Of a stretch of 64,000 nucleotides of DNA, positions 9,647 to 36,073 are shown in pieces; position 1 is the stretch's first letter, and each line of letters begins with the position of its first letter. The stretch lies in NCBI GenBank assembly GCA_002841275.1, contig PHET01000009.1:1-64000 (forward strand), read 5' to 3'. The notes beneath the pieces are model-generated. The model did not search any database and was not told where the DNA came from. It saw only the letters and a program-made list of their open reading frames with translations. This stretch comes from Actinobacteria bacterium HGW-Actinobacteria-7 (lineage in GTDB: Bacteria; Actinomycetota; Coriobacteriia; Anaerosomatales; PHET01). A program made the position numbers and the translations under genes.

Positions 9647-10204
9647 ATGACCATGTTTGCCTGTCTCAGCGTGGGTGCCGTACTTGTTGTCATAGCGCTC
9701 GCAGTGGTCGCGCTGTTCAATCGCCTTGTGGTGCTTCGCAACCGCGTCGACAACGCGTGGGCGCAGATTGAGGTGCAGCTCAAGCAGCGCTACGATTTGA
9801 TCCCCAATCTTGTCGAGGTTGTGAAGGGCTACGCTTCGCACGAGAAGGACACGCTCGAGCGTGTCGTCCAAGCGCGCAATATGGCCACGAGTGCCTCGGG
9901 CGTCGGCGCACAGGCCCAGGCCGACAATATGCTCACGGGAGCCTTGAAGAGTCTGTTCGCTGTTGCTGAGGCCTATCCGGATCTCAAGGCGAACACGAAC
10001 TTCCTCGATCTGCAGCAGAAGCTCAGTGAGGTTGAGCAGAAGATTGCCTATGCGCGCCAGTTCTACAACGATTCGGTCATGAGCTTCAATACGGGGATCC
10101 AGACGTTCCCAGCCAACATTCTCGCAGGCATCTTCGGATTCACGGCGCGCGATTACTTCGAGGCCGAGCCGGCCGCGGACGAAGCGCCGAAAGTGCAGTT
10201 CTAG
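9647..10204 (+). CDS. lemA: LemA family protein
   Basis: A 185-residue LemA family protein: one N-terminal membrane span (about 5-27), then a long four-helix-bundle domain starting at NRVDNAWAQIEVQLKQR and continuing with DLIPNLVEVVKGY. The C-terminal part has the family stretch ending FGFTARDYFEAE. The function is not well defined. LemA genes often sit beside HtpX-type M48 proteases; here the only M48-like gene is 9 kb away and degenerate. AAGGAGGGG precedes the ATG, with a small hairpin (9614-9632) just upstream. lgt follows after 2 bases. Confidence 0.93.
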   Translation: MTMFACLSVGAVLVVIALAVVALFNRLVVLRNRVDNAWAQIEVQLKQRYDLIPNLVEVVKGYASHEKDTLERVVQARNMATSASGVGAQAQADNMLTGALKSLFAVAEAYPDLKANTNFLDLQQKLSEVEQKIAYARQFYNDSVMSFNTGIQTFPANILAGIFGFTARDYFEAEPAADEAPKVQF

Positions 10205-10206
10205 TT

Positions 10207-11034
10207 GTGGTATTGGCGACCGTAGCCTATCCCCGGATCAATCCGATTGCCCTGAGCCTTGGTCCGATTTCAGTGCACTGGTACGGGCTCGCATACGTCA
10301 CAGGGTTCGTTGCCGCTGCTTGGATTCTTCGAGGACTCGCGCGCCGCTGGGCGCTCGGGCTGACCGATGATGACGTTCTGAATGTCCTGCTCGCAGCTGT
10401 TATCGGCGTCATCGCTGGTGGGCGTTTGGGCTACGTGTTGTTCTACGGCGGCAGCTACTATCTGGAGAGCCCGGCGCGGATTCTTGCATTGTGGGACGGC
10501 GGGATGTCGTTCCATGGAGGACTCATCGGGATTCTTCTGGCGGGAGTGGTCGTCTCGCGGACTATGGGAATCCCTTGGCTGACGTTGTGTGACCTCGGTG
10601 CAGTCGGTGCCCCTATCGGCATCGGCCTAGGGCGGCTTGCGAACTTCGTGAACGGCGAACTGTGGGGTCGCGTTACCACCGCACCTTGGGGGATGGTCTT
10701 CCCCGGGGCAGGACCACTACCCCGGCACCCTTCCCAGCTCTATGAGGCCCTGCTCGAAGGAGCTGTGCTCTTCTGCGTGATGTTGTGGTTGGCTCGGAAG
10801 ACCCCCCCGAGGCCGCGTGGCGAGCTGCTCGGCTGGCTGCTGACGGTCTATGGCACCGCCCGCATCGTGGTGGAGTTCTTCAGGGAGCCGGATGGGCAGC
10901 TCGGGTTCTTGGCGGGAGGCTGGCTTACGATGGGAATGCTCCTCAGCGTGCCCATGGTACTGGCAGGGGTGTGGCTGATCGTGATGGCCCGTCATCGCAA
11001 CCTGCCGCAGGCCGTCCGGACCGGCGGCGTCTAG
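10207..11034 (+). CDS. lgt: Prolipoprotein diacylglyceryl transferase
   Basis: Attaches diacylglycerol from phosphatidylglycerol to the lipobox cysteine of prolipoproteins, the first step of lipoprotein maturation in the membrane. The 275-residue multi-span protein has GPISVHWYGLAY near the N-terminus, GGRLGYVLFY, FHGGLIG, and the Lgt signature GRLANFVNGELWGR. It starts at GTG 10207, 2 bases after the lemA stop, so the two are likely co-translated. Likely clients in this window are the lipoproteins at 11398 and 42423. Confidence 0.95.
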   Translation: MVLATVAYPRINPIALSLGPISVHWYGLAYVTGFVAAAWILRGLARRWALGLTDDDVLNVLLAAVIGVIAGGRLGYVLFYGGSYYLESPARILALWDGGMSFHGGLIGILLAGVVVSRTMGIPWLTLCDLGAVGAPIGIGLGRLANFVNGELWGRVTTAPWGMVFPGAGPLPRHPSQLYEALLEGAVLFCVMLWLARKTPPRPRGELLGWLLTVYGTARIVVEFFREPDGQLGFLAGGWLTMGMLLSVPMVLAGVWLIVMARHRNLPQAVRTGGV

Positions 11035-15947: not shown

Positions 15948-16540
15948 TCGCGTTTCTCACGGGGATCGTCGCGGCCAAGGGGACCGGGTTCGTGGTGCTC
16001 GATGTCGCGGGAGTCGGATATCAGTTGAACATGCCGACCGGCTCGCTGGCTTCGCTTCCCCCCGAGGGCGGCCGCGCGACGATTCACACCCACCTGCATG
16101 TTCGTGAGGACGAGTTGTCGTTGTTCGGGTTCGCAGATGACACTGAGAAGTCGGCCTTCGAGCTTCTGATCACGGTGAGCGGCGTCGGCCCCAAGGTAGC
16201 CCTTGCGACCCTGTCGGCCCTCTCGCCCGATGCGCTAGCCGCCGCGATCGCGGCTGATGACGTGGCTTTGATATCCAGCGTGCCAGGTATCGGCAAGAAG
16301 ACGGCTCAGCGCATCATCTTGGACCTGTCGGAGAAGTTCGACGTGGAGGTGCTGCGCGGTGGTATTGGCGGTCGCGGATCCGGGGCTTCGGGGAGCGCCG
16401 CCTCCGAAGCACGCGATGCGCTTCAAGTCATGGGCTTCTCGGCAGCGGAGATTGTTGCGGCGATGAAGGGCGTGCCGGACGGTGCTGAGACGCAGTACGT
16501 GCTTCAATGGGCGCTGAAGCGCCTGGGCGGGGGCCGGTGA
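15944..16540 (+). CDS. ruvA: Holliday junction helicase subunit RuvA
   Basis: Binds the four-way junction as a tetramer and loads RuvB. The 198-residue protein shows the N-terminal OB domain ([18 protein letters not shown]), two helix-hairpin-helix motifs ([10 protein letters not shown] and [10 protein letters not shown]), and the C-terminal RuvB-contact domain. The ATGA start overlaps the ruvC stop by 4 nt. Confidence 0.97.
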
Positions 16541-17616
16541 GCGTGGGGACTGTGTGGGAAGCAGACAACGGTGCGGGGCCTGAAGACCGAGATATCGACC
16601 GGTTGGTCGCCGCCGAGTTCACAGAGGACGACCTCGAGATCGACCGCAGCCTCAGGCCCAAGACTCTGGATGACTACCTGGGGCAGGAGCGGGTCAAAGA
16701 GAACCTGTCGGTGTTGATACAGGCGGCACGGGCACGTGATGAAGCGCTCGACCACGCGCTTCTCTCAGGACCGCCCGGGCTGGGGAAGACCACCCTGGCC
16801 GGCGTCATCGCAAATGAACTCGGTGTGAAGCTCAAGACAACGAGTGGTCCGGCAATCGAGCGAGCAGGCGATCTTGCGGCCATTCTGACCAACCTTGAAG
16901 AGCGCGACGTGTTGTTCATCGATGAGATCCATCGTCTCAACAGGGCCGTTGAGGAAGTGCTCTATCCGGCGATGGAGGACTTCAACCTCGATATCGTCAT
17001 CGGCAAGGGCCCTGCCGCGCGCTCGTTGCGGTTGGAGATTCCGCGATTCACCCTTGTTGGTGCCACAACGCGCACGGGGATGCTTACAGGGCCACTCAGA
17101 GACCGGTTTGGCATGGCTTTTCGACTTGACTACTACACGCCTGTCGAGCTCTCCGACATCGTGTTGAGAAGTGCGACTATCCTCGGTGTCTCGATCGATG
17201 ACGAGGGAGCAGCCGAGATCGCTCGACGCGGCCGTGGAACTCCTCGGCTCGCGAACCGTTTGTTGAAGCGTGTTCGTGACTACGCGCAGGTTCGTCACTC
17301 GGGAAGCATCGATGAGGATATCGCCGCCGAGGCGCTGGCGTTCTTCGAGGTCGACCATCTGGGGCTCGACACTATGGATGTGCGGATTCTGGCGACTCTC
17401 GCCGACACCTTCCAAGGGAGGCCTGTCGGTCTGAACACCTTAGCCAGTGCCACGGGCGAGGAGGCTGAGACGCTTGAGGATGTCTACGAGCCGTACCTGC
17501 TTCAGCTGGGACTGATAGTCAGAACTCCGAAAGGGCGTCAGGCTACACAGCGTGCCTATGAGCACTTGGGTATCGCGCCGCCTTCGAGTGCTCCCGACCA
17601 GAAGGGGCTCTTCTGA
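16537..17616 (+). CDS. ruvB: Holliday junction branch-migration ATPase RuvB
   Basis: A AAA+ motor that drives branch migration with RuvA. In 359 residues it has Walker A GPPGLGKT (78-85), Walker B FIDEIHR, sensor 1 GATTR, the arginine finger region PLRDRFG, and the C-terminal winged helix with GLNTLA. GTG 16537 forms a GTGA overlap with the ruvA stop. The first 30 residues are a variable acidic tail before [13 protein letters not shown]. Confidence 0.97.
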
Positions 17617-17673: not shown

Positions 17674-18033
17674 GTGACTGATGAGCGGGACTCCGACACT
17701 CGGCCGGCCGATACACAGCGACTCGAGGCGGAACTCACGCGCGGCGAGCTGCCATCGCTGCCCCCTAACCAGCCCAAGGGCATGCTTGGAGAGAAGGGTC
17801 TCAACCTCTACAAGGAGGAGTCGTTCACTCCTGACCTGAACTCAGGTATTTCGCAGGAGAACGATTTGCCGGTTGTGTGGCTGGGAATCCTGCTTGCCTA
17901 CATCGTCTTCTTCCCGCTGGCGTACTGGCTGCTCTGGCGTTCTCGGCTCTTTAGCCGTCGTTCCAAGATCATCACGAGCGTCATCGGCGCAATCGGCGTC
18001 GTCGCCGTGGCCGTGGCCGCGTATTCGCGCTGA
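17674..18033 (+). CDS. Small two-span membrane protein
   Basis: A 119-residue protein with a charged N-terminal half and two hydrophobic segments at about 65-88 and 97-117, separated by a short basic loop (RSRLFSRRSK). GTG 17674 follows GAGGAG. It is 57 bp after ruvB in the same direction. No family recognised. The basic loop suggests both ends lie outside the cytoplasm, but this is only a positive-inside guess. Confidence 0.75.
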   Translation: MTDERDSDTRPADTQRLEAELTRGELPSLPPNQPKGMLGEKGLNLYKEESFTPDLNSGISQENDLPVVWLGILLAYIVFFPLAYWLLWRSRLFSRRSKIITSVIGAIGVVAVAVAAYSR

Positions 18034-18174: not shown

Positions 18175-18190
18175 GGAAAGTAGGGTTTGC

Positions 18191-18394
18191 ATGGCTACTG
18201 GTACCGTCAAGTGGTTCAACCCCGACAAGGGCTACGGCTTCATCGAGCAGGAGGGCGGCGAGGACCTCTTCGTTCACTTCAGCGAGATCCAGGGCGACGG
18301 CTTCAAGACCCTCGACGAGGGGCAGGCCGTGGATTTCGATGTAACTACCGGTCGCAACGGCAAGGAGCAGGCGAGCAACGTTCGCAAGCTTTAG
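18191..18394 (+). CDS. Cold-shock protein (CspA family)
   Basis: A 67-residue single cold-shock domain that binds single-stranded nucleic acid. Both RNA-binding motifs are intact: KGYGFI (RNP1) and LFVHFS (RNP2), preceded by [11 protein letters not shown]. The ATG is at 18191 with GGAAAG 10 bases upstream; an upstream in-frame start at 18158 adds non-family residues. It has its own leader with hairpins and a stem-loop downstream, so it appears monocistronic. Confidence 0.95.
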
Positions 18395-18456: not shown

Positions 18457-18501
18457 GCTATACTGCTCTTGCGATCGACGATGGTCCCAGAAGGAGAGCC
18501 C

Positions 18502-19608
18502 GTGCCCACCGAATCCGTGGTTGCCAGCAGGCTAAGGGTCTCGGCGCTGTGGGTCCGCGTTGACCAGAATCGCGCCAAGATCACGACGTTCGTTGTTCTG
18601 TTCGTCGCTGGTTCGGCAGTCCTACTGGATCTCGCACTGGTAGCGGTGCCGGGGAGCCTCCTGAGTCTGGTGTTCGCCGATCAGAACCGGTCGTGGTTCC
18701 GTGGGCTGTTCGTGGTGTGGGTGGTCGCACTGGCTGTTCTGCTTCTGGTTGGTGGGCTGGCAGCAGCAGTCCAGCTATCGAATGCCGAGGACTGGGTACG
18801 GAATCGTTTTGCTGGCAGAGACCCCCGCGAGGGTGAGGCGCTCGAGCTCAAGTTGGCCGTCGAGGACATGAGATTGGCCTCAGGGCTTGCTGCACCGCTG
18901 CGCATCATCATTCTTGAGGCACCAGGCGACAGCGTCAACGCGCTTGCGCTGGGAACGACACGCACAAGTCCGCTTATCGGGGTGACCCCGGGCTTTCTCA
19001 CGGCACTTGATGTTGACGAACAGCGTGCGATCATTGCGACACTCACTGCGCGCATCCTCGCTGGAGACATCATGTTCGGCACGGCGTTGGCAGCGCTGAT
19101 GGGACCGCTGAAGTTGATACGCGAATCGCGCAAGGCGACGGGCAATGCGGCTGGTGCGGTGGCGGATGCCGGATGCTCGGATCCAGGATGTAGCTCCGGG
19201 TGCGGCGATGGATGTATCGATGGTCTGGGCGACTCGGATGGATGTGCAGGCGCCATAGTCATGATTGTCTTCGTGGCAGTCGTCATAGCGCTCACGTATG
19301 CGGCGGTTGTCACGGCGGCATGGATCGTGACCTTGTGGGGTCGCGCACTGCATCGAACAGCGTACGAGAAGGCCGATGCGGAAGGCATGTTGCTGCTGAA
19401 GGACCCCGCTGCGATGCTCTCCGCGCTCAGAAAGACGGCGACCAGCTCGAATGTCGTTGGCGACGGCGACGAGAGCTACGACGGAATCTTCTATGCCGCG
19501 ACAAGTGGGACCGCAAAAGTGGAGCGAATCGAGCGGCGACGGTATGACCGGCTGCGCGAGGTCCTTGGCATCGATGGTCTGGCCGCAGCGCCAATGGTCG
19601 AGCGGTAG
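18502..19608 (+). CDS. M48-like membrane protein lacking the zinc site (pseudopeptidase)
   Basis: A 368-residue multi-span protein laid out like M48 (HtpX/YugP-type) peptidases. Two spans lie at about 30-100. A soluble segment with NALALGTT (from N146) and GVTPGFLTALDVDEQRAIIA follows, then further spans, and finally YEKADAEGMLL. The zinc motif HExxH is replaced by TLTAR (180-184), and the downstream third-ligand glutamate is not in place, so it should be inactive as a protease. Between the core and the next span is an insertion with five cysteines (about 224-250) rich in Gly, Asp and Ser. GTG 18502 follows AAGGAG. No partner is adjacent. It may be a scaffold or chaperone-like relative, or have a new metal site. 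Confidence 0.75.
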   Translation: MPTESVVASRLRVSALWVRVDQNRAKITTFVVLFVAGSAVLLDLALVAVPGSLLSLVFADQNRSWFRGLFVVWVVALAVLLLVGGLAAAVQLSNAEDWVRNRFAGRDPREGEALELKLAVEDMRLASGLAAPLRIIILEAPGDSVNALALGTTRTSPLIGVTPGFLTALDVDEQRAIIATLTARILAGDIMFGTALAALMGPLKLIRESRKATGNAAGAVADAGCSDPGCSSGCGDGCIDGLGDSDGCAGAIVMIVFVAVVIALTYAAVVTAAWIVTLWGRALHRTAYEKADAEGMLLLKDPAAMLSALRKTATSSNVVGDGDESYDGIFYAATSGTAKVERIERRRYDRLREVLGIDGLAAAPMVER

Positions 19609-21623: not shown

Positions 21624-21974
21624 CTAGGGCGCAACAGCTGTTGCGAGCCATGCTCCGTGGAGGTTGCAGTTCTCCATTGCCGCTATCTCGGTGCCTGCAT
21701 CGATGTTGAGAACGCACGTCAGAATGGGGTCCACGGCCACCGCTGAAGCATCGAATCGCGCGACTGGCGTGCCTGCTGCGTGGACCTCTATCCACTGGAT
21801 GAAGTGGTCGGGCTGATTGGGGTGTGAGACGAGGTGGCCCACGATGACAGTGACAGCAACCCTGTCGCCGTCACGAACGCACGCTATGTGGGGCAGATGC
21901 TTCTTCTCGAAATCACTTGCAGAATCGACATCGGCTACGGTGTTGATTCCTGACAGAATCGGCGCGTCGTTCAT
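21624..21974 (-). CDS. Superoxide reductase (neelaredoxin-type)
   Basis: Reduces superoxide to hydrogen peroxide without making oxygen, a typical defence of anaerobes. The 116-residue protein holds all five ligands of the catalytic iron: H26 in EKKHLP, H51 and H57 in HPNQPDHFIQWIE, C103 and H106 in ENCNLHG. There is no N-terminal desulforedoxin Cys4 domain, so it is the one-iron type. ATG 21974 is preceded by GGAGG with 5-base spacing; the upstream ATG at 21986 overlaps that site. It converges on the gene at 21247 and is divergent from the isochorismatase-like gene. Confidence 0.92.
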   Translation of the reverse strand: MNDAPILSGINTVADVDSASDFEKKHLPHIACVRDGDRVAVTVIVGHLVSHPNQPDHFIQWIEVHAAGTPVARFDASAVAVDPILTCVLNIDAGTEIAAMENCNLHGAWLATAVAP

Positions 21975-22112
21975 CTGTACCTCCATGTCATTGGCGGCTG
22001 GGCTCCGGCCGTTCGCCGGTAAGCAGGTATATACCCTCGCAACGTGCAGCTAGAATCGTCTTCGAGGGCAGTTCGCCCACGACAACGCTTCCCTGTGGTT
22101 CGGAGGTACGCT

Positions 22113-32443: not shown

Positions 32444-35400
32444 ATGGTGACGGAATGCCCACATACACCGTGGTATTCGGAATCGGTCGATGAAGACACG
32501 GTAACCGCTGTTGTTGGCGCGACGGGCCTCTCTCGGGTGGTGGCACGGATCCTTGCCGTTCGGGGTCTGACCGACCCTGTGAAGATCCGTGAGTTCCTTG
32601 AGCCATCGCTTCGGCGGGACTGGTCGGACCCTTTGCTCATCCCTGGGATGGAGCATGGCGCCGCGCGCGTGGCCGAGAGTGTGCGTTCTGGTGAGAAGAT
32701 CGTGGTGTTCGGTGATTTCGACCTCGACGGGATCAGCGCAGCTGCCCTAGCAACCCGCGGGCTTCGGGAGATGGGCGCCGTGGTCGATGCGATTGTGCCC
32801 CATCGCTTCCGGGAGGGGTATGGGTTGTCGGCGACTGCCATCGAGCGGCTCATGACTCATGAGCCGAAGTTGGTGGTCACCGTAGACTGCGGCATCTCCT
32901 CGCAGGCAGAAGTCGCGCTCTTGCTGGACCGCGGAGTCGACGTCGTGGTGACCGATCATCATGAGCCGGCCGGAAGCGTCCCGGAACTGGTACCCGTGGT
33001 GAATCCCAAACTTGAGCGTGGATGTCCCTCTCGGGATTTGGCGGGGGCCGGCGTTGCGCTCAAGCTGGTTCATGCGGTGGGCCATCTGCTCGGATATGAG
33101 GGCGTGTGGGAGGGCCTGACCGACCTCGCGATGCTCGGGACGATTGCTGACATCGTGCCATTGCGCGGAGAGAACCGCGCACTCGTCGCTCACGGCATCT
33201 CTGCGACGCGTCAAGGGCCCAGGACACCGCTTGCGGCCCTGTGCGCAGTCTCGGGGGTCTCGGTCGAGATGCTCACGGCTGACAACGTGGCGTTCGCGCT
33301 CGCCCCTCGGCTCAACGCCGCTGGCCGCATGGCGGATCCACGGATCGCACTGGATCTGCTGTTGACTGATGACCCGCAGGAAGCCGAAGCCCATTCGCAG
33401 GCACTCGATGAACACAACAAGCTTCGTCAGACCACTGAGGCGGACCTCTCGGAGGCGGCCACGGCGCTCGCTGAGCGCAGCTACCACGGCCAGCGGGCAC
33501 TGGTACTGGCAGGCGAGGGATGGCACGAGGGCGTCAAGGGTATCGTCGCCTCTCGGATCGCTCGCACGTACGGCGTTCCGGTCTTTCTGTTCGCAATCGA
33601 GAACGGTGTGGCCAAAGGTTCAGCGCGAAGCGTTGGCACCGTCGATCTGTTCAAAGCCACCGAGGAGAGCTCGGGAACGGTCGAACGATTCGGGGGCCAT
33701 GCGGCAGCCGTCGGACTCACTCTGCCCGCAGCGGACCTTGGCCGGTTCGAGTCGGATCTCCTTGCGCATCTCGACGAGCTTCCCGAGGTCGCCTTCGAGT
33801 CAGGGCTTAGAATCGACGCGGAAGTCACGCTCGACGAGTTGAGCGTCGAGCTGGGAACCGAGCTCTCGTTGCTCGCACCGTTTGGCCACAGCAATCCTCG
33901 CCCCCTGCTCGCACTACGGTCTGTCTTCATGAACGGTCGTGACCGAGTTGGCCGTGGGGGAGTCCACCTCAAGTTCACCGCGTACGATGGGGCGTTCTCC
34001 GTGCCAGCGATCTCGTTTCGCTGTGCCGACATCGAACGGCTGAGCGCCCGCGATGGCGCGGTCGACTTGGCTTTCGAACTCGATGTGGATGAGTGGAGAG
34101 GTCGCAAGCGGGCCCAGTTGATCGTTAGGGACATCGTGATCCACGACCTTGAGCGACCCGGTGGTGACACTGCGGAGCTACTCGAGGATCTGTTTGCGCG
34201 CGCGGACGAGCTTCTGGCTCGTGAAGAATACGCGGGAATCGAGGACGCGCCGTCTTTCCACACGAAACTGGCCGGGGTCACCTTCGAGGGCAGGCAGGAC
34301 GTTCTGGCCCGCCTTGAGGTCGGTCTGCCTCTGCGCATCGAGCGCGAGCCTGAGAACCCCTACGACCCGCAAGCGTGTGCGGTGTTCGATCCGCATGGCA
34401 GACAGGTGGGATACCTCAATCGGCGACTCGCGTCGGTTCTGGCCCCGGCTATTGACGCTGGGGTGGAGTACGACATTGAGATCAGTGACATCACTGGCGG
34501 CGAACCGGGGCAGTCGCGAGGGGTGAACGTACTGGTCTCTCGCCGAGACGCCGCGGGTGCACGGGCCGAGGGGCCCGAGGATATGGCAGCTCGACGGACA
34601 GCGCTTACGTTGCTCGAACCAGAGGAGTTGGATGCCGAACTGGTCGCGAGCTTCATAGGCGATCGCTCCCTGCACGACGCGCAGTCTGAGGCGCTCGCGG
34701 CGCTTGCGCAGAGGGAGAACACGCTCGTGGTCATGGCGACCGGGCGTGGGAAGTCCCTGATCTTTCACTTGCACGCTGCGCGCATTGCACTTCGCGACTC
34801 GGCGGCGAGCGTGTTCGTCTTCCCGTTGCGGGCCCTTGTTGCAGACCAGGCATTCCATCTCCAGGAGTCGTTCTCGAAGGTTGGTGTGACCGTCCGCACG
34901 GTGACCGGTGAGACCTCGCAGACAGAGCGCGACGAGGCTTTTGCCGAGTTGGCCCAAGGAGCGCTTGATGTGGTTCTGACCACGCCAGAGTTCCTGCACT
35001 TTCACGTCAGGCGATTCGTGGACACAGGGCGTGTGGGTTTCGTCGTCATCGATGAGGCGCACCATGTGGGCTTGTCGCGCGCCGGCAACCGTCCTGCGTA
35101 CGCGAGAATCGGTGAGGCTGTCACAGCACTGGGAAACCCCACCGTCTTGGCGGTCACGGCGACGGCGTCGGATGAGATTGCCGATCAGATCCGCGCCACC
35201 CTCGGCATATCGAAGATGGTGCTTGACCCGACGGTCCGCGACAATCTCTTGATCGAGGACCGTCGCGCAGGTACGGACAGGGACGGCTATCTGGTGGCGC
35301 TCGCCGCCCGGCACGAGAAGATGGTCGTGTATGTGAACTCTCGCGATGCTTCCGTGCGCTTGGCTCGCATGCTGCGCAAGAAGGTGCCCGAGCTTGCCTG

Positions 35401-36073
35401 GAAGACGGCATTCTACAATGGCGGGCTCTCTCGATCGGTACGCCAGGCGGTCGAAGCGGCCTTCAGGTCAGGGGAGGTTCAGGTAGTGATCGCCACCAGC
35501 GCGTTCGGTGAGGGCGTCAACATCCCCGACATTCGCCACGTGAGTCTGTACCATCTGCCGTTCAACGCCGTCGAGTTCAACCAGATGGCCGGTCGGGCGG
35601 GGCGCGACGGAGCGGTGGCGCGAATCCACCTGCTGTTCGGTGAGAAGGACGCCCGCATCAACGAGAACATCCTCTCGACGCTGGCCCCCACCAGAGACGA
35701 CCTGGCCGTCCTGTATCGCGTGCTCAGGGAGATCTCGGAGCGAGAAGGCGAGGGCTTCGAGATCACCAACGCTGAACTCGCCGAGAAATGCTCGGCGCTC
35801 TCCCGTAGTACCCGGCTCGACGACCGAGGTGTCTCCTCGGCACTTGGGATCTTCCGTGATCTCGGTCTTGTGGTTGGCGAGGGCCATGGAGCCTATCGTC
35901 GCCTGACGTTCGTTCCCAGCTCAGACAAACTCGAACTGACTGACAGCGTGCGATATGCGGAGGGCCTAGATGAGATCGAGGAGTTCGGCTTCTTCCGCGA
36001 GTGGGTGCTGAGTGCGACCGCAGAGGAGTTGCTCGTGCGCTTCAACCGTCCTATCCTTCCCACACACTCGTGA
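32444..36073 (+). CDS. recJ: RecJ exonuclease with inserted HIRAN domain and SF2 helicase
   Basis: A 1209-residue DNA-repair protein, about twice normal RecJ length. Residues 1-600 are RecJ: DHH motifs DFDLDG (D91, D93, D95), VDCG (D148), TDHH (D171-H173), the DHHA1 part with GGHAAAVG near 417, and an OB region. A HIRAN domain (about 604-700) with LRIEREPENPYDPQA and VGYLNRR follows. Next is a complete RecQ-like helicase: Walker A ATGRGKS (765-771), DEAH (870-873), TATAS (about 904), and QMAGRAGRDG (about 1047). The last 130 residues resemble the usual RecJ C-terminal domain (KLELTDSVRYAEG), so the extra domains look inserted rather than appended. The RecQ Cys4 zinc site is absent. Spacing from TAGGAT to ATG is 6 bases. 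rel follows. Confidence 0.93.
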   Translation: MVTECPHTPWYSESVDEDTVTAVVGATGLSRVVARILAVRGLTDPVKIREFLEPSLRRDWSDPLLIPGMEHGAARVAESVRSGEKIVVFGDFDLDGISAAALATRGLREMGAVVDAIVPHRFREGYGLSATAIERLMTHEPKLVVTVDCGISSQAEVALLLDRGVDVVVTDHHEPAGSVPELVPVVNPKLERGCPSRDLAGAGVALKLVHAVGHLLGYEGVWEGLTDLAMLGTIADIVPLRGENRALVAHGISATRQGPRTPLAALCAVSGVSVEMLTADNVAFALAPRLNAAGRMADPRIALDLLLTDDPQEAEAHSQALDEHNKLRQTTEADLSEAATALAERSYHGQRALVLAGEGWHEGVKGIVASRIARTYGVPVFLFAIENGVAKGSARSVGTVDLFKATEESSGTVERFGGHAAAVGLTLPAADLGRFESDLLAHLDELPEVAFESGLRIDAEVTLDELSVELGTELSLLAPFGHSNPRPLLALRSVFMNGRDRVGRGGVHLKFTAYDGAFSVPAISFRCADIERLSARDGAVDLAFELDVDEWRGRKRAQLIVRDIVIHDLERPGGDTAELLEDLFARADELLAREEYAGIEDAPSFHTKLAGVTFEGRQDVLARLEVGLPLRIEREPENPYDPQACAVFDPHGRQVGYLNRRLASVLAPAIDAGVEYDIEISDITGGEPGQSRGVNVLVSRRDAAGARAEGPEDMAARRTALTLLEPEELDAELVASFIGDRSLHDAQSEALAALAQRENTLVVMATGRGKSLIFHLHAARIALRDSAASVFVFPLRALVADQAFHLQESFSKVGVTVRTVTGETSQTERDEAFAELAQGALDVVLTTPEFLHFHVRRFVDTGRVGFVVIDEAHHVGLSRAGNRPAYARIGEAVTALGNPTVLAVTATASDEIADQIRATLGISKMVLDPTVRDNLLIEDRRAGTDRDGYLVALAARHEKMVVYVNSRDASVRLARMLRKKVPELAWKTAFYNGGLSRSVRQAVEAAFRSGEVQVVIATSAFGEGVNIPDIRHVSLYHLPFNAVEFNQMAGRAGRDGAVARIHLLFGEKDARINENILSTLAPTRDDLAVLYRVLREISEREGEGFEITNAELAEKCSALSRSTRLDDRGVSSALGIFRDLGLVVGEGHGAYRRLTFVPSSDKLELTDSVRYAEGLDEIEEFGFFREWVLSATAEELLVRFNRPILPTHS

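Follow-up and report, generated by a model that had tools for sequence, protein, structure and literature searches.

Gene organization at the ruvB locus

The analysed DNA, hereafter called the window, is a 64,000-nucleotide stretch of contig PHET01000009.1 from Actinobacteria bacterium HGW-Actinobacteria-7. Positions 18502..19608 (+) encode a 368-aa membrane protein that belongs to subfamily A of a family of M48/HtpX-derived pseudoproteases. The gene likely starts with the GTG codon at 18502, as the sequence reads AGAAGGAG (18489..18496, +), a Shine-Dalgarno-like element, 5 bases upstream of it. Promoter and terminator scan of the region upstream of the gene yielded nothing useful.

The gene is preceded by ruvB (16507..17616, +), a conserved neighbour. 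Among 20 loci compared, ruvB is found upstream of A and on the same strand in 15 and lies outside the contig in four; L099 lacks the A gene and carries tandem B-type genes (see below) instead. On the downstream side, a desulfoferrodoxin-like gene (21624..21986, -) is conserved with or without the pseudoprotease. In genomes devoid of A, all 20 fetched ruvB loci contain both ruvB and the desulfoferrodoxin gene with no A match between them; in L157 the two are separated by about 90 bases. Since the desulfoferrodoxin gene stays in 20/20 loci without A, its link to A is not specific. An A-level match is absent from 41 of 61 related genomes and present in 20. A is thus a dispensable gene with one fixed home, after ruvB.

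Two small ORFs of the window lie on the same strand between ruvB and the pseudoprotease gene, one coding for a 119-aa membrane protein (17674-18033) and one cold-shock-like (about 18185-18391). They occur at this place in only a few relatives.

Relationship to M48 peptidases and predicted fold

The initial annotation had aligned the protein to M48 peptidases by eye and proposed a profile search and a fold prediction. The kinship is borne out by profile-profile comparison (hhalign) with active HtpX, which gave E 6.9e-31 and covered nearly the whole protein. When searched alone with the M48 profile PF01435, the window protein scores 20.1 bits, marginally less than the cut-off of 20.3. This cut-off is exceeded by several orthologues, of which the A gene of G009 scores highest with 38.9 bits, and a match at E<=1 is obtained for 33 of the 39 proteins of the family (best 1.7e-12). 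With NCBIfam HtpX models, the window protein gives E-values down to 2e-15, yet its best score of 56.8 bits is far below the equivalog cut-off of 355. The solved HtpX domain 3cqb was found by the family profile at 3.8e-12. A tetraspanin identity (14.4 bits vs cut-off 32.1) is not credible.

The AlphaFold model of the window protein, built from a 39-row alignment, has pLDDT 84.8 and pTM 0.80 and displays an M48 zincin fold with membrane helices. M48 structures are its best matches. According to VIA, these are Ste24 (Z 12.7) and BepA (12.5), while the HtpX domain is matched with Z 9.8 and 2.2 A over 94 residues. VIA also lists BlaR1, ABC transporters and kinases; we interpret these rows either as different zincin families or as a general resemblance between helical proteins. 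With Foldseek the first nine ranks are M48 proteins, but the best E is only 9.4e-3, so that this tool alone gives no match to the model at E<=0.001. Ste24/ZMPSTE24 and BepA share the M48 fold with subfamily A but differ from it in being active zinc proteases, with seven spans in Ste24 and TPRs in BepA.

HtpX (M48, PF01435) and A have in common homology over nearly the whole length, two N-terminal membrane helices, the NA motif, a hairpin of helices 3 and 4 and the conserved AD after the place of the third ligand. In contrast to HtpX, A lacks HExxH, the third ligand and the THPP end motif, and possesses a large acidic cysteine loop. Profiles and model together indicate that the window protein descends from an HtpX-like M48 membrane metalloprotease, a type of quality-control protease widespread in bacteria.

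In the model, supported by hydropathy, the predicted transmembrane helices 1 (residues 16-57; 18547..18672, +; also supported by charges) and 2 (63-93; 18688..18780, +) lie near the N-terminus, which is basic ahead of helix 1. Helix 3 (189-222; 19066..19167, +) is a weak transmembrane candidate by hydropathy, and transmembrane helix 4 (247-299; 19240..19398, +) continues into the EKADAEG helix. From this HtpX-like layout and from charge we infer a cytoplasmic-membrane protein with four spans and with the loop between helices 3 and 4 outside. Helix 3, however, has weak hydrophobicity and about three Lys/Arg residues come after it, so it is uncertain whether the loop really faces outward.

Loss of the zinc site

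An alignment of 39 inactive proteins was constructed. It contains 17 members of subfamily A (the window protein and orthologues sharing 53-65% identity with it) and 22 of subfamily B (23-36%), the latter comprising paralogues and divergent members. Left outside were the A loci L011, L015 and L020/L050, which were not needed, partial or split in two frames, as well as L024, L025, L028, L029, L030, L039, L042, L049 and a short L048 frame, all B or more divergent. For comparison we used fifty HtpX-type proteins, of which 30 belong to the same order and 20 to other parts of the phylum.

Profile alignment reveals that TLTAR (residues 180-184; 19039..19053, +) occupies the place of HExxH, column for column with HELAH/HELSH of HtpX, just as the initial annotation had read it. 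Similarly, YEKAD (288-292; 19363..19377, +) occupies the ExxAD place and aligns with EYLAD of HtpX; a tyrosine stands where the glutamate should be, so the third zinc ligand is indeed gone. HExxH is found at the site in none of the 17 A and none of the 22 B proteins. The catalytic glutamate is replaced by leucine and the second histidine by arginine in 39/39. The first-histidine column holds T, A or P in A; in B it holds N in 18 proteins and H in 4. The third-ligand column holds Tyr or His in A and Ala or Ser in B. HtpX-type proteins, for comparison, retain HExxH in 50/50 cases and ExxAD in 49/50. The Asn-Ala pair (146-147; 18937..18942, +), common to the NAFA motif of active HtpX, is invariant in all 39 inactive proteins and, like L181, R184 and EKADAEG, is among the strongly conserved elements of the peptidase-like part of A.

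The same inactive pattern, with 4-8 loop cysteines, was observed in L011, L015, L020, L119 and 16 named loci (L100-L115), the named loci being mostly from genomes already counted. L011 and L108 add M as a further first residue of the xLxAR-type motif. In G011:C199 (L020/L050) the A gene is split over two frames, due to either real decay or assembly error.

Conservation of the TLTAR-type replacement in relatives had been proposed as a test, and an intact HExxH in them would have pointed to a local mutation. All orthologues share the change. Moreover, seven pairs of A genes gave dN/dS values of 0.08-0.32; in several of them dS is close to saturation. A local mutation or a decaying gene is therefore ruled out, and the A gene is under purifying selection. 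The zinc cutting site, with all three ligands and the catalytic glutamate, was lost long ago and the loss is fixed across the family; the suspicion of a pseudoenzyme is thus supported. As for the suggested new role, purifying selection combined with absent catalytic residues supports it only indirectly.

Two subfamilies of inactive proteins

To the maximum-likelihood tree 89 proteins contributed. The 39 inactive ones are split from the 50 HtpX-type ones by a branch supported 100/99, and A is a single clade, set apart by a 100/100 branch. Because A is nested among B, the latter is not a clade in this tree. The root and the place of divergent L044 and L048 are unsure, since long branches meet in the tree (tool warning).

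Subfamily B paralogues, from the same order, resemble A in the inactive xLxAR, EKADAEG and the RVDxNR start and stand on the same side of the tree. They differ in lacking the cysteine cluster, in the first ligand (N or H, against T/A/P in A) and in the third (Ala/Ser). The genome of the window itself holds such a second inactive M48 paralogue without the cysteine cluster (L031 4161-5321, G000:C4:92214-93203). In many of the ten B loci inspected (of 18), B adjoins histidine-biosynthesis genes; hisB, hisH, hisA, hisF and hisE were named by reading translations.

Some members are strongly divergent. L044 3552-5813 (G003) comprises two tandem B-type genes with HLVAR, in which the first histidine is kept and the glutamate and second histidine are lost. 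Two very divergent members outside the tree, at L049 4220-5374 and 8571-9500 (G031), display HLVAR and SLLGR at the site.

The cysteine-rich loop of subfamily A

Residues 213-248 (19138..19245, +) form an acidic Gly/Asp/Ser loop. It contains Cys 225, 230, 234, 238 and 248, the sole cysteines of the window protein. If five positions are drawn at random from 368 residues, they all fit into a stretch of 24 residues with a frequency of about 3.5e-5. The initial annotation was right in noticing five closely spaced cysteines, but it placed them between the core and the membrane spans. Alignment and model locate all five at the tip that joins helices 3 and 4. The active HtpX proteins of this order carry a short Gly/Arg/Ser loop in that position. 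The cysteine stretch is an enlarged, rewritten loop rather than a new domain. Confidence of the model is low in this part (block means about 49-69).

Conservation of the cysteine loop in relatives had likewise been proposed as a test: 4-8 loop cysteines are found in 17/17 A proteins. Cys 238 and 248 are invariant in these, and 225, 230 and 234 are at least 90% conserved. The corresponding segment of B contains no cysteine in 19 of 22 proteins; L037 has one, one L044 gene has one and the other L044 gene three. Averages per loop in A are 0.2 K/R, 6.9 D/E and 6.1 Cys, against 4.1, 5.7 and 0 in B. In A, the tip connecting helices 1 and 2 is acidic as well. Judged from these sequences, the cysteine cluster is a trait of subfamily A.

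We considered whether the loop might be a tolerated low-complexity stretch with no specific role, the protein being an inactive membrane scaffold like B. Its length and spacing do vary, its Gly/Asp/Ser/Cys make-up is simple, and the corresponding loop of active HtpX is Gly-rich and variable too. On the other hand, cysteines are otherwise rare (23 in 15601 residues of the 50 HtpX-type proteins), yet at least four are kept in each A protein. We rate this explanation as rather unlikely.

Conversely, the loop might be the main function, i.e. a membrane metal/thiol sensor or a metal store for which the inactive M48 part serves as scaffold or signal relay. The conservation of the five cysteines is in favour of this idea. 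However, the peptidase-like core is itself strongly conserved, and B keeps the same core without cysteines, which argues that the core has a function of its own. We regard such a loop-centred role as unlikely.

In A, steps of the form CxxxxC are common, as is a distance of 9-13 residues for the last gap; the variation in spacing and length speaks against one rigid metal site. Search for disulphide machinery in the genome of the window revealed one DsbA-like match and no VKOR match, which fails to decide between metal and disulphide.

Distribution and relation to active HtpX

A-level matches (E<=1e-130) were detected in 22 of 296 class genomes sampled, all of the same order, which we take to be OPB41/Anaerosomatales. 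At E<=0.001 matches occur in 69/296, of which 67 are in the same order (own family included) and two others give 1.5e-6 and 1.8e-5. Named matches come from MAGs labelled Actinomycetota/Actinobacteria, Coriobacteriia, Coriobacteriales or Coriobacteriaceae. In a phylum sample searched at 1e-8, 319 of 396 genomes match, and the 20 fetched proteins are HtpX with HExxH; with 20 of 319 matches inspected, inactive members may occur elsewhere in the phylum.

In many relatives active htpX is located between lemA and lgt. In the window, lemA (9647-10204) is directly followed by lgt (10207-11034), together spanning 9647..11034 (+). PF01435 search of the genome gave no match at E<=0.001, and search with an HtpX alignment retrieved two genes, A (C14) and B (C4), with no active HtpX among them. 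The assembly, in 38 contigs, has a completeness rating of 100%, so htpX has likely been lost from this genome. lemA is kept without htpX here, and the same tight lemA-lgt junction is present in G001 and G026.

This distribution bears on the possibility that A acts as a partner or decoy that regulates the active HtpX of its own cell. htpX co-occurs with A in 12 of 20 A-bearing genomes, and in several relatives both lie on the same contig, about 7-10 kb apart. The remaining eight A-bearing genomes, including that of the window, show no htpX. Loss of htpX while A is kept speaks against HtpX regulation as a general role, which is very unlikely, and an obligate regulator is rejected for the window's genome. 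htpX is lacking in 8/20 genomes with A vs 4/41 without A (Fisher p 0.013; contig-end fragments in G040 and G047 scored as htpX present). This association of A with htpX loss was not relied on, as the genomes are related and some assemblies are fragmentary.

Possible function

Taken together, the A protein is a pseudoprotease, kept by selection in one actinobacterial group, that probably does a non-cutting job. As to its nature, we favour, with a probability of roughly 0.4, a non-catalytic membrane scaffold or adaptor whose acidic, outward cysteine loop would bind metal or form disulphides. The peptidase-like domain would be cytoplasmic and no longer able to cut. The old substrate groove, along with the helix bundle, might bind membrane proteins or a partner, in the manner of inactive rhomboids. 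The acidic tip joining helices 3 and 4, with its many cysteines, would face outward and, by binding a metal ion or making disulphides, could give the protein a metal or redox input. FtsH, which is present in the window's genome, is a possible partner.

Among membrane pseudoproteases, those of the rhomboid family are the best known. The adaptor idea is drawn by analogy with rhomboid pseudoproteases and YqgP. The literature describes membrane protease families (iRhom, YqgP) that act without, or apart from, cutting (PMC6451368, PMC3149277, PMC7231995). The likeness of the A protein to iRhom pseudoproteases and the FtsH adaptor YqgP is an analogy only: rhomboids are unrelated serine intramembrane proteases and YqgP itself is active, whereas the adaptor role of the A protein is putative.

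A broader scenario can be imagined, though we consider it improbable. The M48 protease family would have turned once into non-cutting receptors, the cysteine metal/redox site being new on the outside in A. Here and in certain other lineages, these receptors would have outlived active HtpX and taken its niche in membrane quality control, e.g. by feeding clients to FtsH.

That A keeps enzymatic activity via another catalytic arrangement is most improbable: at the old active site L181, R184 and D292 are invariant and E289 nearly so in the 39 aligned proteins, but all zinc ligands and the general base, which M48 catalysis requires, are gone in A. R184 might instead form a salt bridge with E289/D292 and so close the old site.

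The inactive proteins offer a second case, inside M48/HtpX, for asking what a membrane protease does after cutting stops. They constitute a deep, fixed and selected pseudoprotease clade of M48/HtpX that comprises a paralogue split and a cysteine loop specific to one lineage. Annotation by homology only could wrongly label A and B genes as zinc proteases. In the part of the literature covered, nothing was found on inactive M48/HtpX proteins of these bacteria, nor any paper linking HtpX to Coriobacteriia or to pseudoproteases, or M48 to pseudopeptidases. The terms M48 and non-peptidase homolog do occur together in five papers, so inactive M48 homologues from elsewhere may well already be on record.

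Apart from this family, the window contains a gene (32444-36073, +) coding for a 1209-aa protein that combines RecJ (DHH, DHHA1, RecJ OB) with HIRAN and a DEAD/Helicase_C helicase, which looks like an unusual fusion.
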